The notes under the pieces were generated by a model that saw nothing but the letters and a program-made list of their open reading frames with translations, ran no database searches and was not told the origin of the DNA. A stretch of DNA of 64,000 bases, taken from Aequorivita aquimaris. GTDB lineage: Bacteria; Bacteroidota; Bacteroidia; Flavobacteriales; Flavobacteriaceae. Both the position numbers and the translations under genes were made by a program. The first letter of the stretch is position 1, and each line of letters begins with the position of its first letter. Location of the stretch: assembly GCF_001573155.1 (NCBI RefSeq), contig NZ_JRWG01000002.1, positions 248,001 through 312,000 on the forward strand, read 5' to 3'. Shown here one piece after another: positions 49,751-60,661 of the stretch.

Positions 49751-51850
49751 TTAATTTATCGTCGCCCCATTCTCAACCCCATCTTCCCCAGGGTTAACAA
49801 AAACAAGTTTCCCATCAGTATTTTCAGTCATTAAAATCATCCCTTGGCTTTCCACTCCGCGCAGTTTTCGGGGTGCCAGGTTTGCCAAAACGGTTACTTT
49901 TTTACCGATAATTTCTTCGGGTTTAAAACTTTCGGCAATTCCGGACACTATGGTCCGCACATCAATTCCTGTATCAACTTTCAACACCAAAAGTTTATCT
50001 GCTTTTGGCATTTTTTCGGCTTCAATTATGGTTCCAACGCGCATATCTAGTTTTGCAAAATCGTCGTATTGAATCGTTTCTTTTTGTGGCGTAACCTTTT
50101 TGTTTGCTGCTTCGTTCATTTTCTTACTCGCTTGTAGTTTATCTAATTGTTGTTGAATTTGTTCGTCCTCAATTTTGCTGAAAAGCAATTCGGCTTTATT
50201 TATTTTATGGCCTGGTTTCAGCAATTCTGATTTTGAAGAAACATCATTCCACCCTAACGAGATCTCGACAGAGCCTGTCCTGAGAGCAGTCGAAGGGCTC
50301 GACCTGACATTGAGCATATTTTTAAGTTTTTCTGAAGTAAATGGTAAAAACGGTTCGCTTAATATAGCCAAAGCCGATGCAATTTGCAGTGCAACATACA
50401 TTACTGTTTTGGTGCGCTCCTCGTCGGTTTTTATGGTTTTCCAAGGCTCTTCGTCTGCTAGATATTTGTTTCCGAGGCGGGCCACGTTAATCAATTCTGC
50501 CTGCGCTTCGCGGAAACGGTAGCGCTCAATTGAACTCGCAATCACTGCGGGATAGGCTTTCAATTCGTTTAAAGTCTGTTCGTCAATTTCTGAAAACGCA
50601 GCGGGTTCGGGTACGATTCCGTCGTAATATTTATCGGTCAAAACCATTACACGGTTTATAAAATTTCCGAAGATGGCAACCAATTCATTATTATTTCGCG
50701 CTTGAAAATCTGCCCAAGTAAAATCGTTATCCTTTGTTTCCGGGGCATTTGCGGTTAAAGTGTATCGCAACACATCCTGTTGGTTCGGAAAATCCTCCAA
50801 ATATTCGTGCAGCCAAACCGCCCAGTTTTTACTGGTTGAAATTTTGTTGCCTTCAAGATTCAAAAATTCGTTTGCGGGAACGTTTTCCGGTAGAATATAA
50901 CTGCCTTCCGCTTTCAGCATTGCAGGGAAAATAATGCAATGGAAAACGATGTTGTCTTTCCCTATAAAATGAAGGAGTTTGGTATTGTCGTCCTTCCAAT
51001 AATCTTCCCAATTTTTATCTTCGCGCGCCGCCCATTCCTTGGTTGATGAAATATAGCCAATGGGAGCATCAAACCAAACGTAAAGCACTTTTCCGTCTGC
51101 TCCTTCCACCGGAACGGGAATGCCCCAATCGAGATCGCGGGTTACTGCACGCGGGCGCAAACCGTCGTCAATCCAGCTTTTACACTGGCCAAGCACGTTA
51201 GTTTTCCAATCTTTTTTATGGTCAACGAGAATCCATTCCCTTAAAAAATCTTCGTAGCGATCCAAAGGTAAAAACCAATGTTTTGTTTTTTTTAAAACGG
51301 GTTTATTTCCAGAAATTACGCTTCGCGGATTTATCAAATCGGTCGCGTTTAAACTTGTTCCGCAGTTTTCACATTGGTCGCCGTATGCTTCTTCATGACC
51401 ACATTTTGGGCAGGTTCCTATTACAAATCTGTCCGCCAAAAATTGATTAGCCTCTTCGTCAAACAATTGCTCGGTAATTTCTTCAATAAATTGACCGGCA
51501 TCATACATTTTCTTGAAAAATTCCGAAGCGGTTTTATGGTGGATTTCAGCCGAAGTGCGCGAATAATTATCAAATGAAATCCCAAAATCTTCAAAACTTT
51601 TTTTGATGATTGTGTGATATTTATCAACCACTTCTTGCGGTGTTATTCCTTCTTTTTTCGCTTTCAACGTAATGGCAACGCCGTGTTCATCGCTTCCGCA
51701 GATAAATGCAACGTCTTTGTTTTGAAGTCGTTGGTAACGTGCATAAATATCTGCCGGCACATAAACGCCCGCCAAATGGCCAATGTGAACAGGGCCGTTT
51801 GTGTAGGGTAAAGCGGCCGTAATTGTATATCTATTCGGGTTCTGATCCAT
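49751..51850 (-). CDS. metG: Methionyl-tRNA synthetase with in-frame palindromic insertion
   Basis: A 699-residue enzyme that charges tRNA-Met. HIGH-like motif [20 protein letters not shown], zinc-binding [23 protein letters not shown]-like NKISTSKNW and the C-terminal tRNA-binding domain ([20 protein letters not shown]). An in-frame 16-residue segment, [16 protein letters not shown], encoded at 50259-50316, sits between MLNV and LGWND in the linker before the tRNA-binding domain and derives from a dispersed palindromic repeat. The ATG at 51850 starts the family; 14 more codons upstream are unlikely. Confidence 0.93.
50259..50316. repeat. Palindromic repeat inserted in metG
   Basis: The segment around ACAGAGCCTGTCCTGAGAGC ... 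GCTCGACCTGACATT shares 15 identical bases (50297-50311) with an intergenic repeat at 60006-60020 and the GCAGTCGAAG core with one in mfd. It is in frame in metG. Confidence 0.85.
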
Positions 51851-51934
51851 AATTTTTTTTGAAAACCTGCCAAAATGGGCAGGCAGGCACAAAAGTACAC
51901 ATAAATGTAGTAATTTGTGGTTTTAAATAGATTC

Positions 51935-54280: not shown

Positions 54281-57200
54281 TTATTCGCTAAAGGGCTCCA
54301 AAGCTCTAAGTGCTTTATCTACGGAAGAAATACCTTCAAAAGTAAGCAACAACCGCAAGCCGTTACGGGTTTGTTTTTCCTTCATCGTTACTTTTTGGGG
54401 ATGGGTTTGTACGTATTGCAGCACTTTGGTAAAAGCGGCACTTTGGTAAAAAGCACTTTGCTGGTCTGCCACAAAATAACCCACCATTTTTTTCTGTTTC
54501 ATCACAAGGCGTTCAAGACCCATGGAAATGGCAATCCATTTTATGCGAACGCTGTTCAGCAAATCTTCCGCTTCTTTTGGCATTTCCCCAAAACGATCCA
54601 GCAATTCCTTTTCAAATTTCTGAAGTTCGGCTTCATTTTTCAGCTCGTTCAGTTTGGTGTACAGATTGAGCCTTTCGGTAATATTGTTTACGTAATCGTC
54701 AGGAAACAGCAATTCAAAATCGGTGTCGATGGTCATTTCTTTTACGAAATTTTTCTTTGGGCCCTCGGTTTCTTCGTAAAGATTTTTGAATTCCTTTTCT
54801 TTCAATTCTTCAATCGCTTCCGCAAGAATTTTTTGATAGGTCTCAAACCCAATTTCATTTATAAATCCACTCTGTTCGCCGCCCAGCAAATCGCCGGCAC
54901 CACGAATTTCCAAATCTTTCATCGCAATATTAATCCCGCTTCCCAATTCTGAAAATTGTTCCAAAGCAGTGATCCTTTTTCGGGCTTCATCCGTCATCGC
55001 AGAATATTCCGGCGTGATGAAATAACAGAACGCTTTTTTGTTGCTCCGGCCCACGCGACCGCGCATTTGGTGGAGGTCTGAAAGCCCGAAATTATTGGCA
55101 TTATTAATAAATATTGTATTTGCATTTGGAACGTCCAGTCCACTTTCAATGATGGTTGTGGAAACGAGAACGTCGAATTCATTGTTCATAAATCGAAGCA
55201 TTAAATCCTCCAATTTCTTTCCGTCCATTTGCCCGTGACCAATACCTATTTTCGCATCGGGCACCAAACGTTGGAGCATTCCGGCGACTTCTTTTATATT
55301 TTCTATTCTATTGTGAACAAAGAAAACTTGTCCGCCGCGCGAAATTTCATAACGCACCGCATCGCGAATGCTTTCCTCCCCAAAACGAATCACGTGTGTT
55401 TCCACAGGATAACGGTTGGGCGGCGGAGTGGTTATTACTGAAAGGTCGCGCGCGGCCATCAAACTGAACTGCAACGTACGCGGAATGGGCGTCGCGGTTA
55501 ATGTGAGCGTGTCCACATTTTCTTTGATAGTTTTGAGCTTGTCCTTTACCGCTACGCCAAATTTCTGTTCCTCATCAATAATCAAAAGACCCAAATCCTT
55601 AAATTCTACGGACTTGTTAACCAATTGGTGTGTACCAATAACGATATCGAGCTTGCCATTTTTCAATTCCTCCAAAACCGTTTTTCGCTCTTTTGCGGTT
55701 CGGAATCGGTTGAGATAATCAACTTTTACGGGCATTTCCGAAAGTCGTTCGGAAAATGTTTTAAAATGCTGAAATGCCAAAATAGTCGTCGGCACCAAAA
55801 CTGCCACTTGTTTGCCATTGTCAACCGCTTTGAAAGCCGCACGGATTGCGACTTCCGTTTTTCCGAAGCCTACGTCGCCACAAACCAAACGGTCCATCGG
55901 GCGCTCGTTTTCCATATCTTTTTTTACCTCTTCCGTGGCCGTACTTTGGTCCGGCGTATCTTCGTAAATAAAGGAAGACTCCAATTCAGCCTGCAAATAA
56001 CTGTCCGGGTCGAAGGCGAAACCTTTCAGCGTGCGGCGTTTGGCGTATAATTCAATTAAATTAAAGGCAATTTCCTTTACGCGGGTTTTGGTTTTTTGCT
56101 TCAGTTTTTTCCACGCATCGCTGCCCAATTTGTAGATTTTGGGCTCTTTTCCATCCTTGCCGTTATATTTTGAAATCTTGTGCAGCGAATGGATGCTGAG
56201 GTACAAAATATCGCGTTCGCCGTAAAAAAGTTTGATGGCTTCCTGCATTTTCCCTTCCACTTCAATTTTCTGCAAGCCGCCGAATTTCCCAATGCCGTGG
56301 TCAATATGCGTTACGTAATCGCCCACTTCCAGATTGGTGATTTCCTTTAATGTAATTGCCTGCTTTTTGGCGTAACCGTTTTTCAGTTGAAATTTGTGGT
56401 ATCGTTCAAAAATTTGATGATCGGTGTAGCAAACAATTTTTAAATCGTCATCAATAAACCCCTGAAAGAGTGGAAATACAACGGTTTCAAACTGCTCAAC
56501 ATTTTGCTGGGCATCTTCAAAAATATCGTGGAATCGTTTTGCCTGCTGCTCGCTGCTGCAGAAAATATAGTTTTTATAGCCTTTTTCGGAATTGTCATTC
56601 AAGTTTTCAATCAGTAAATTGAATTGTTTGTTGAATGACGGCTGGGGTTTGGTATTGAATGAAATCGAAAGCCCACCCCCTGCCCCTCCCGAGGGGAGGG
56701 GAGTTTTGTTATTTTTTAAATGGACCGTTGTAAATTCGGATAGTTGTGCTTTCAATAATTCCGAAGTACAGAACAATTCTGAAGGTTCTGCACGTTTTAT
56801 TTCTGAGTTGATTGCGTCAAAAGCTTCCGTAGCTTTTTTAAAAAGATTGTCAATTGCGCTGCTGAAAAGTTCTTCGTTTTTAAGAAAAACCACTGTTTTT
56901 GAAGCAATATATTTCAGAAAACTCATTTTCATGCTGAGCGCAGTCGAAGCATCAACATTCGGGATAATGGAAACTTTTTTCACCTGTTCCAACGAAAGTT
57001 GCGTTTCCACATCAAAAGTTCGGATGCTGTCCACTTCATCGCCAAAAAATTCAATCCGGTAAGGCTCATCATTGCTGAAACTGAACACGTCCAAAATCCC
57101 CCCACGTACTGAAAATTCGCCCGGTTCGGTAACAAAATCGGTGCGTTTGAAGCGGTACTCAAATAAAACCTCGTTTACAAAATCGATGGAAAGTTGGTCG

Positions 57201-57643
57201 TTTACTGCAATTTTCAGGGTGTTTCGCTCTAATTCCTTTCGAGTAACCACTTTCTCAAAAAGTGCTTCGGGATAGGTAACAATCAACGCCGGTTTTTTTC
57301 TGGAATTTATTCGGTTTAAAACCTCGCTTCGCAACAAAACATTGGCGTTATCAGTCTCTTCAATTTGATAGGGACGCCGATAACTTCCAGGATAGAAAAG
57401 CACATTTTGGTCGCCCAAAAGATTTTCGAGATCGTTTAAATGATAGGCAGCTTCTTCTTTATCATTAAAAATTAAAAGAAAAGGCAATTCCGAAGTAGAA
57501 AAAGTTTCAGCAATTACAAGTGAAAGCGATGAGCCAACGAGGCCAGAAACTTGAATTTTATTTTCGGATGAAGCAATAGAATCCCGCAGTTTTCGTGTTT
57601 GCGAAGACCGTGAATATAGCGAAGTAACGAGTGTTTTGCTCAT
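54281..57643 (-). CDS. mfd: Transcription-repair coupling factor
   Basis: A 1,120-residue translocase that removes stalled RNA polymerase and recruits UvrA. UvrB-like N-terminus, RNA-polymerase-interacting domain with CarD-type VGDYVTHIDHGIGKFGGLQ, helicase motifs DRLVCGDVGFGKTEVAIRAA and LLIIDEEQKFGV, QMRGRVGRSNKKAFCYF and a C-terminal TRCF domain. Two repeat-derived segments sit in the region before the helicase: DASTALSMK (56928-56953) and KTPLPSGGAGGG (56669-56708). Both keep the frame. Confidence 0.95.
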   Translation of the reverse strand: MSKTLVTSLYSRSSQTRKLRDSIASSENKIQVSGLVGSSLSLVIAETFSTSELPFLLIFNDKEEAAYHLNDLENLLGDQNVLFYPGSYRRPYQIEETDNANVLLRSEVLNRINSRKKPALIVTYPEALFEKVVTRKELERNTLKIAVNDQLSIDFVNEVLFEYRFKRTDFVTEPGEFSVRGGILDVFSFSNDEPYRIEFFGDEVDSIRTFDVETQLSLEQVKKVSIIPNVDASTALSMKMSFLKYIASKTVVFLKNEELFSSAIDNLFKKATEAFDAINSEIKRAEPSELFCTSELLKAQLSEFTTVHLKNNKTPLPSGGAGGGLSISFNTKPQPSFNKQFNLLIENLNDNSEKGYKNYIFCSSEQQAKRFHDIFEDAQQNVEQFETVVFPLFQGFIDDDLKIVCYTDHQIFERYHKFQLKNGYAKKQAITLKEITNLEVGDYVTHIDHGIGKFGGLQKIEVEGKMQEAIKLFYGERDILYLSIHSLHKISKYNGKDGKEPKIYKLGSDAWKKLKQKTKTRVKEIAFNLIELYAKRRTLKGFAFDPDSYLQAELESSFIYEDTPDQSTATEEVKKDMENERPMDRLVCGDVGFGKTEVAIRAAFKAVDNGKQVAVLVPTTILAFQHFKTFSERLSEMPVKVDYLNRFRTAKERKTVLEELKNGKLDIVIGTHQLVNKSVEFKDLGLLIIDEEQKFGVAVKDKLKTIKENVDTLTLTATPIPRTLQFSLMAARDLSVITTPPPNRYPVETHVIRFGEESIRDAVRYEISRGGQVFFVHNRIENIKEVAGMLQRLVPDAKIGIGHGQMDGKKLEDLMLRFMNNEFDVLVSTTIIESGLDVPNANTIFINNANNFGLSDLHQMRGRVGRSNKKAFCYFITPEYSAMTDEARKRITALEQFSELGSGINIAMKDLEIRGAGDLLGGEQSGFINEIGFETYQKILAEAIEELKEKEFKNLYEETEGPKKNFVKEMTIDTDFELLFPDDYVNNITERLNLYTKLNELKNEAELQKFEKELLDRFGEMPKEAEDLLNSVRIKWIAISMGLERLVMKQKKMVGYFVADQQSAFYQSAAFTKVLQYVQTHPQKVTMKEKQTRNGLRLLLTFEGISSVDKALRALEPFSE
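56669..56708. repeat. GC-rich palindromic repeat inserted in mfd
   Basis: CCCCTCCC (56683-56690) pairs with GGGAGGGG (56694-56701) across a 3-base loop. In frame in mfd it encodes LPSGGAGGGL. Similar GC-rich CCCCTCCCGAGGGGAGG hairpins are common between Bacteroidetes genes. Confidence 0.75.
56928..56953. repeat. Second repeat inserted in mfd
   Basis: TTCATGCTGAGCGCAGTCGA followed by AGCATC, with arms ATGCT (56931-56935) and AGCAT (56948-56952). It shares GCAGTCGAAG with the metG element and is read in frame as NVDASTALSMK. Confidence 0.75.
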
Positions 57644-59930: not shown

Positions 59931-59950
59931 AATATCTTATTGCAGAAGCC

Positions 59951-60020
59951 GTTCGAGCGCAGTCGAAAACCCATAGCTTTAGTTGTAAGCATAGGTCTCA
60001 ACTGCGCTCGACCTGACATT
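59951..60020. repeat. Intergenic palindromic repeat downstream of pdeM
   Basis: TCGAGCGCAGT (59953-59963) and ACTGCGCTCGA (60001-60011) are perfect complements around a 37-base loop. Its right end, GCTCGACCTGACATT (60006-60020), is identical to the metG element and directly abuts the pdeM stop codon. Confidence 0.85.
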
Positions 60021-60661
60021 TATTTCTTCGAAACACAAATCACCTCCCCATCCACAATTGCGAAAACGGTATCCATTTCCGAAGGTTTTAAAATGTGCTT
60101 TCCCGTAAAGTTACCAAAAGCGGGCAAAATAAGGCTGTTAAGGGTTTTATAAAAACAAGCAAACCGCAAATACTGCCTGCCCACGCCCTTCATTTTTATC
60201 CCCGGATGCACGTGGCCGCAAAGGTTGAAGGCACCTTTAATCTCGGTGGGATGGTGGGTCAACAAAAAATCGTCGAGCAACAATTCGTCAAAAACCTTAA
60301 TTCCCAATTCTTCGTATAAATATTGTGGAATAATATCGTGGTTGCCCGAAATCAGGATTATTTCCGCCTTTGTGTATTCCGTCCACTTTTCAAAATCCTG
60401 CCATTCCTCGTTCAATTTACTGTGGAAAAGATCGCCCAAAAAGCAGATAGTTTCAGGTTGAAAATGGTTGCTTATCTCTGTAAGTTTTTCAAGATTTTTG
60501 TACGCTGCATTTGCCGGAACGGGCGCGCCGTGTTTTCTGAAATGTGCCACTTTTCCCAAATGTACATCGGCGATTAACAGCATTTTCTTGTCCTCCCAAT
60601 AGATTGCGCCGCTGGGGTGTAATTTGAAGTCGTTATTTTTAATTGAAATATTTTGAATCAT
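60020..60661 (-). CDS. pdeM: Ligase-associated metallophosphoesterase PdeM
   Basis: A 213-residue calcineurin-like phosphoesterase with metal motifs LIADVHLGKVAHFRKHG, CFLGDLFHS, ILISGNHD and LCGHVHPG. It matches the ligase-associated nuclease of the bacterial Lhr/ATP-ligase repair clusters. Its ATG overlaps the helicase stop by four bases (ATGA), so the operon is coupled. Confidence 0.92.
   Translation of the reverse strand: MIQNISIKNNDFKLHPSGAIYWEDKKMLLIADVHLGKVAHFRKHGAPVPANAAYKNLEKLTEISNHFQPETICFLGDLFHSKLNEEWQDFEKWTEYTKAEIILISGNHDIIPQYLYEELGIKVFDELLLDDFLLTHHPTEIKGAFNLCGHVHPGIKMKGVGRQYLRFACFYKTLNSLILPAFGNFTGKHILKPSEMDTVFAIVDGEVICVSKK

Follow-up and report, generated by a model that had tools for sequence, protein, structure and literature searches.

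The 16-residue segment inside the methionyl-tRNA synthetase (MetG) of Aequorivita aquimaris is, on our best explanation, which we hold as reasonably likely, a dispersed REP-like palindromic repeat located in a surface loop that later, in the line leading to A. aquimaris and its sister genome G041, received a second repeat, inverted, within the repeat's own loop. On the same explanation, such repeats would arise and be maintained by copying and template switching and be kept by selection. The repeat family is dispersed, its complementary arms covary, alternative repeats occupy one protein loop, nested and un-nested alleles exist, and the reading frame is kept.

The window, the whole stretch of DNA that was analysed, comprises 64,000 nucleotides of A. 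aquimaris (contig NZ_JRWG01000002.1, positions 248,001 to 312,000), and the following features in it are discussed below:

49751-51892, minus strand: metG, methionyl-tRNA synthetase, the host gene (NF001100, 887 bits).
50260-50309, minus strand: nested palindromic repeat in metG, outer repeat TGTC-AGGTC-GAGC-(27 nt)-GTCGA-GATCT.
50270-50296, plus strand: inner repeat in the loop of the outer metG repeat, inverted, AGAGCCTGTCCTGAGAGCAGTCGAAGG.
56931-56952, plus strand: another in-frame family copy, located in mfd (54281-57643, minus strand) and read within NVDASTALSMKM.
59941-60023: intergenic head-to-head repeat pair with tags outward, plus strand at 59941-59979 (weak, E 0.097) and minus strand at 59985-60023 (E 1.6e-8), from the covariance model.

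The original prediction of an in-frame repeat in metG held, with the limits of the repeat refined to 50260-50309 (plus-strand coordinates). In minus-strand DNA it reads TGTC-AGGTC-GAGC-CCTTCGACTGCTCTCAGGACAGGCTCT-GTCGA-GATCT, with the TGTC tag of the outer repeat at 50306-50309, and the outer repeat lies within the codons of the 16-residue segment (residues 517-532 of the 700-aa form) and the neighbouring N and V. In the translation the segment is flanked by MLNV and LGWND, and the frame is intact. The copy is nested, the loop of one repeat holding another of the same family in inverted orientation; in the relatives L028 and L044 the place of the inner repeat is occupied by GCA. The 15-base identity with an intergenic repeat that had drawn attention to the segment, GCTCGACCTGACATT at 50297-50311 and 60006-60020, was also found, the expected number by dinucleotide shuffles being 0.00. 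The description of the segment as palindromic stood as far as arm complementarity and covariation are concerned; it did not extend to folding, as the window copy folds no better than shuffles (RNA z 0.73, DNA z -0.33). A strong hairpin at this copy was therefore dropped, and we call the copy palindromic because its arms are complementary and covary. Rfam at gathering thresholds recognised two tRNAs only in the window.

In A. aquimaris, copies of the family follow the layout TGTC-N, arm, GAGC-GCA-GTCGA, complementary arm. The arms, mostly 4-5 bp long around a core GAGC-NNN-GTCGA, vary between copies yet pair with each other (GGTC/GACC, CCCT/AGGG, ATGCT/AGCAT, ACACT/AGTGT and AGTTC/GAACT). The expectation that further copies of the metG element exist in the genome was borne out: TTCGACTGCKCTCR with at most one mismatch occurs at 25 sites in the 3.15 Mb A. 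aquimaris genome and the reversed pattern at none, and GAGCNNNGTCGA occurs exactly 20 times versus 2 for the control. Exact cores were present in all 28 genus genomes, with 6-125 per genome against 0-2 for the reversed pattern. Among 91 exact cores of G041, taken regardless of their arms, 86 had at least 4 arm pairs and 79 carried the TGTC tag. In 21 typed A. aquimaris copies, metG excluded, 89.8% of cells pair, and the covariation score was 0.679 versus 0.224 for shuffled rows (reached by none of 500 shuffles; slid controls at most 0.178); these rows were picked with arms of at least 3 bp, so this test leans towards pairing. Less biased tests are provided by all 91 exact G041 cores and by the orthologous metG site, where 14 sequences gave a score of 0.512 versus 0.221 (0 of 500 shuffles; slid controls at most 0.160). 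Within the core GA lies opposite GA, so that tandem G.A pairs could form. A covariance model trained on the 21 A. aquimaris copies, with metG left out, recovered the window metG copy at E 0.055 and the short metG copies of relatives at E values down to 7e-9.

The copies lie both between and within genes. By eye, many plus/minus neighbours in G041 form dimers 25-54 nt apart with tags outward, other arrangements being few; one G041 cluster (L280, 1424-4862) holds nine repeats, mostly head-to-head pairs, in about 3.5 kb. Of the 91 G041 copies, 19 overlap predicted ORFs, and by our own count 11 are well inside ORFs of at least 150 aa. A core-plus-arm scan of the window and 16 Aequorivita metG loci (including L070, which falls outside the genus by the metG tree) returned 32 matches in 403 kb, 23 of them within ORFs (reversed control, 1), and 64 loci of other Flavobacteriaceae returned 57 matches in 1.30 Mb, 20 within ORFs (control, 5); this sample favours metG, and some of its matches are due to chance. 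In one 295-aa ORF of A. aquimaris (L011, 780-1667), a run of several repeats (about 42 residues) was seen between HELFTQ and THITTNL; this ORF had no NCBIfam match at 1e-10.

The loop of MetG that holds the repeat was then compared across relatives; by MetG, the nearest named ones belong to Aequorivita, family Flavobacteriaceae. The original prediction that MetG proteins are usually shorter at this point agrees with five genomes of other families of the order, which have few residues only, and with the solved MetRS 1rqg, which has a gap at the insert position; it does not describe Aequorivita, most of which carry the repeat (15 of 22 genus genomes by the covariance model at E<=0.05 and 17 of 22 at E<=1, the window itself being at 0.055). 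Where relatives have related residues at the loop, the repeat itself is present. Besides the short form (e.g., L028 and L042) and the nested form (L027, L031, L034, L040 and L046), a flipped form was found on the opposite strand in L035, whose 27 nt match the L039 form, taken as its reverse complement, at all but 2 positions. A short-loop form is read HAELVEA in L033 and L041 and is decayed in L029, and the repeat of L030 has mismatched arms. The repeats of L029, L036 and L040 were missed by the model but are recognisable by eye as decayed copies; L047 and L048, also missed, have an unrelated repeat, read LPSGEMPLGRGG or PPSGEMPLGRGG, about ten residues further on. Outside the genus, the model found the loop repeat in L070, in Ulvibacter L072 and Aquaticitalea L085, both of the short form, and in L080 (E 0.48), with further matches in Marixanthomonas L077 (other strand), L119, L130 and L136 (E 0.2), and many other Flavobacteriaceae among the 80 loci had no recognisable repeat at the MetG loop. 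In two cases, repeats also occur at one MetG site in different genera: at KKxN-xSTSS, with peptides in L031, L034, L043 and Marixanthomonas L077 and DNA matches in L060, L066 and L077, and near the C-terminus, at NPDTSTxLS, in L077, Bizionia L124 and Aequorivita L046 (a model match).

The order of events was read from a metG tree built without the loop, and from a second version to which G041 was added. The window and G041, both of them nested and with GGTC as outer arms, group together (99%). Their wider clade (100%) also contains L028 and L044, which match them in the outer arms and resemble them in the flanks but are un-nested; because these two relatives keep the outer repeat without the inner one, nesting inside an older repeat is the younger event, common to the window and G041. 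It had been suggested that sister species might lack exactly the whole segment, and this is not so: L028 and L044 lack only the inner 24 net nt. L080, nested with different inner and outer arms, is an independent case, as its sister L085 (100%) is short. HAEL forms occur inside the nested/un-nested clade, in L041 (91% with the window and G041) and in L029 (98% with L028 and L044), and therefore allele exchange must also have occurred. The HAELVEA form of L033 is absent from its sister L032 (93%), and the form read GEMPLGRGG is found in L047 and L048 and, apart from them on the tree, in L071. Allele exchange within the genus thus accounts for some of the metG pattern. An explanation going further, that one ancient repeat in the MetG loop was inherited and that homologous recombination between the metG alleles of the genus spread its varied forms, with no new insertions, would fit L033, L041/L029 and L071 as well as the short form of Ulvibacter L072 and Aquaticitalea L085. 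However, recombination by itself makes no flipped, nested or foreign-repeat forms, and both the inner repeats and the outer arms differ between the window with G041 and L080; with the PyrD alleles described next, which are empty as well as filled, we regard this explanation as improbable.

PyrD was found in 27 of the 28 genus genomes, and one of its loops was empty in five (L197, L199, L200, L201 and L205), short in two (L192 and L196), nested in four (L185-L188), flipped and nested in two (L189 and L193) and double in two (L191 and L195), the remaining 12 having degenerate or other short loops. In Mfd, the family copy takes the place of ENKMVDENRE-type residues, leaving the net length unchanged; at this place, 40 of 40 relatives whose alignment covers it, among the 80 loci searched, have other residues of the same length. 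A flanking target duplication, which had been raised as a possibility for the insertion, was not seen by eye at the PyrD and Mfd repeats, where the repeat replaces host bases wholly or partly. The mfd gene also holds a second, unrelated GC-rich palindromic repeat, CCCCTCCCCTCGGGAGGGGCAGGGG (56677-56701, minus strand), which encodes an in-frame PLPSGGAGGG in a loop of Mfd; counterparts were observed in L060, L064 and L065, and in Formosa L125 this loop is occupied by another repeat-like peptide, HSERSEES. Further in-frame copies of the family share one site in a protein of L114 and L118, which are of different genera, that we presume to be Tex-like (the L114 protein gave S1 and ComEA-type domain matches only in NCBIfam) and apparently, judged by residues, one site in GltX of G001, G013 and G041 (GltX of L222 was confirmed by NCBIfam). 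Others lie in ArgS (L234), PurL (L224), a hybrid kinase (L009) and a ligase-associated helicase (L070, two copies).

Nested copies differ in net length between coding and noncoding DNA. In open frames the net length was +24 nt in 11 of 11 copies, which come from four genes and are partly non-independent (metG 5, pyrD 4, gltX 1 and argS 1), and in noncoding DNA it was +25 in 7 of 7, with 0 of 7 in frame (coding vs noncoding, p = 3e-5). What is informative in this comparison is the noncoding unit, whose length is for the most part not divisible by three, because an open frame presupposes a frame-compatible length. In a wider scan with more loci and looser rules, noncoding nested copies were +25 or +26 in 9 of 9, and coding ones were in frame in 11 cases and out of frame in 1 for arms of 4 (p = 3.4e-5), and 11 and 5, respectively, for arms of 3 (p = 0.001); by inspection, the coding exceptions were chance matches or, in L222, a second parse of a counted element. 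One noncoding nested copy with a 27-nt spacer (+24), in L236, was kept out of both scans by its degenerate right core.

The MetG insert is predicted to be a surface loop, modelled with low confidence. AlphaFold2 on 22 MetG proteins gave a best model with a mean pLDDT of 74.8 (five models, 52.4-74.8), in which residues 519-530, within the insert at 517-532, were below 50 and the preceding helix 504-513 was well modelled. In the stretch that aligns with 1rqg, the loop comes after the final helix ahead of the C-terminal part; we take this region to be the anticodon-binding domain, and such a position would suit loop peptides selected for a function such as tRNA contact or regulation, with the resemblance to repeats as a by-product. 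This explanation is very improbable in our judgement, as the peptides are wholly different (AVETS, IALDQ, HAELVEA and GEMPLGRGG) and derive from one strand or the other, and the DNA repeat itself is also found in unrelated proteins and between genes. The MetG insert peptide is probably without a function of its own.

Another explanation is that the repeats are moved in trans by a transposase, whether a RAYT or another TnpA_Y1, or by an unknown recombinase, and that ordinary transposition followed by decay produced the differences within the genus. Y1_Tnp is indeed present in 19 of the 28 genus genomes, and a gene of about 150 aa with DHVH, WQ and YIxNQHxHH motifs lies directly downstream of metG in five (L031, L039, L040, L043 and L048), about 0.8 kb from the metG repeat where one is present; a family repeat also lies near a Y1 gene in L166 and L183. 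However, no Y1_Tnp was detectable in the A. aquimaris genome, and the nine genomes without a detectable one (A. aquimaris and eight others, three of the nine being <90% complete) hold 6-91 copies. Copy number did not correlate with Y1 count across the 28 genomes (rho 0.09, p 0.64), the model found a nearby repeat at only 2 of 28 Y1 loci, and no target duplication was seen by eye at PyrD or Mfd. The metG-linked genes and most other Y1 genes of about 150 aa that were inspected sit among different repeats. The metG-adjacent gene, which resembles TnpA_Y1 subclass 1.2 (PMC6006769, as far as its available text goes), is near gccctttcagggc-type repeats, and paralogues of about 153 aa (L158-L161 and L164) are flanked by a different palindrome, gtcccgttagggaca...atatnggta, which suggests cognate repeats for a Y1_Tnp class described as generally lacking typical terminal structures. 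A link between the family and the Y1 gene beside metG was therefore dropped, since this gene has its own flanking repeats, and movement by a transposase in trans appears unlikely.

Considering the above results, we return to copying and template switching at replication. New copies would be copied from other repeats into single-stranded or hairpin DNA, template switching between arms would keep them complementary and occasionally flip the element, and purifying selection would retain the copies that have a frame-fitting net length and lie in exposed loops. Published work reports that template switching at inverted repeats homogenises their arms and turns their spacers round, coding DNA included; it has been described in yeast coding genes (PMC8604942) and in RNA genes (PMC8794818), according to the parts of these papers available to us. 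Arm covariation together with flipping is the expected footprint of such switching, and the repeats are probably maintained and flipped in this way; survival in essential genes may be explained by frame and loop position. Counting against this explanation, no repeat was seen to move, and the folding energies of the window copy are unremarkable. It is a tentative further proposal, which we would put somewhat below an even chance, that a family without a transposase stays palindromic, flips and enters its own loops via template switching, and so continually supplies essential enzymes across the bacterial family with in-frame loop variants at preferred sites.

Intragenic REPs and Rickettsia elements have, in the accounts available to us, so far been described mostly gene by gene. 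Here, within a single genus, the same residues of MetG, and likewise of PyrD, are occupied by alleles that are short, nested, flipped or made of another repeat (in PyrD empty ones too), with covarying arms. Two questions thereby become testable: by what route REP-like repeats spread and remain palindromic when they have no transposase, and how often selfish-looking DNA provides new loops for essential proteins. The allele series also suggests a way in which DNA that looks parasitic can go on remodelling loops in vital proteins.

Among the matches listed in a search of the open-access literature, which leaves subscription papers mostly outside, there was no paper on this repeat family in Flavobacteriaceae, and such absence is unproven. 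In the available text of PMC6006769, RAYT-associated REPs are also small dispersed stem-loops; in contrast to them, the Aequorivita family has TGTC in place of the GTAG tag and no cognate Y1 transposase was found, with 0 Y1_Tnp in A. aquimaris and a nearby repeat at 2 of 28 Y1 loci. The template switching described in PMC8604942 and PMC8794818 is similar in that arms become homogenised, changes are compensatory and spacers are inverted, coding DNA included, and in their available text it is not tied to a dispersed repeat family. A closer likeness is to the CGTC/TGTC-tagged REPs of PMC3733652, which that paper, in the text at hand, describes in Bacteroidetes among others and in part inside genes, including those of tRNA synthetases; two Xanthomonas recB genes there have different REPs at about the same site, and larger enterobacterial repeats read in frame in genes are described in the accessible part of PMC2759123. 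Shared with the CGTC-tagged REPs, as there described, are the one-sided tag with its TGTC variant (near the 5' arm in 79 of 91 exact G041 copies), a short stem-loop, heterodimers, copies in genes, no association with transposase genes, and a predominance of head-to-head pairs among the dimers, as judged by eye in G041, with one such pair at 59941-60023 of the window. Those REPs have stems of 8-9 bp almost invariably starting with AT, loops of 4-5 nt and mostly a CCA tail, whereas the Aequorivita family has short variable arms (at least 4 bp in 86 of 91) round a fixed GAGC-NNN-GTCGA core, and its copies nest in each other's loops; the copies inspected had no constant AT and, by eye, no constant CCA after the 3' arm. 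RPE-4 and RPE-6 of Rickettsia, placed in the CGTC superfamily, are palindromic and lie in frame inside functional protein genes, and the original comparison with such elements is supported by their description in the available text of PMC3733652, rather than by Rickettsia sequence. Like them, the Aequorivita family has in-frame copies in functional protein genes, namely those of MetG, PyrD, Mfd, GltX and ArgS; compared by description, it differs in that one protein loop has alternative, flipped and nested forms across species. The best reading is that the family is a variant of the intragenic REP/Rickettsia-type elements, marked by arms that covary freely around a constant core, by copies nested in loops and by an allele series at orthologous protein loops.
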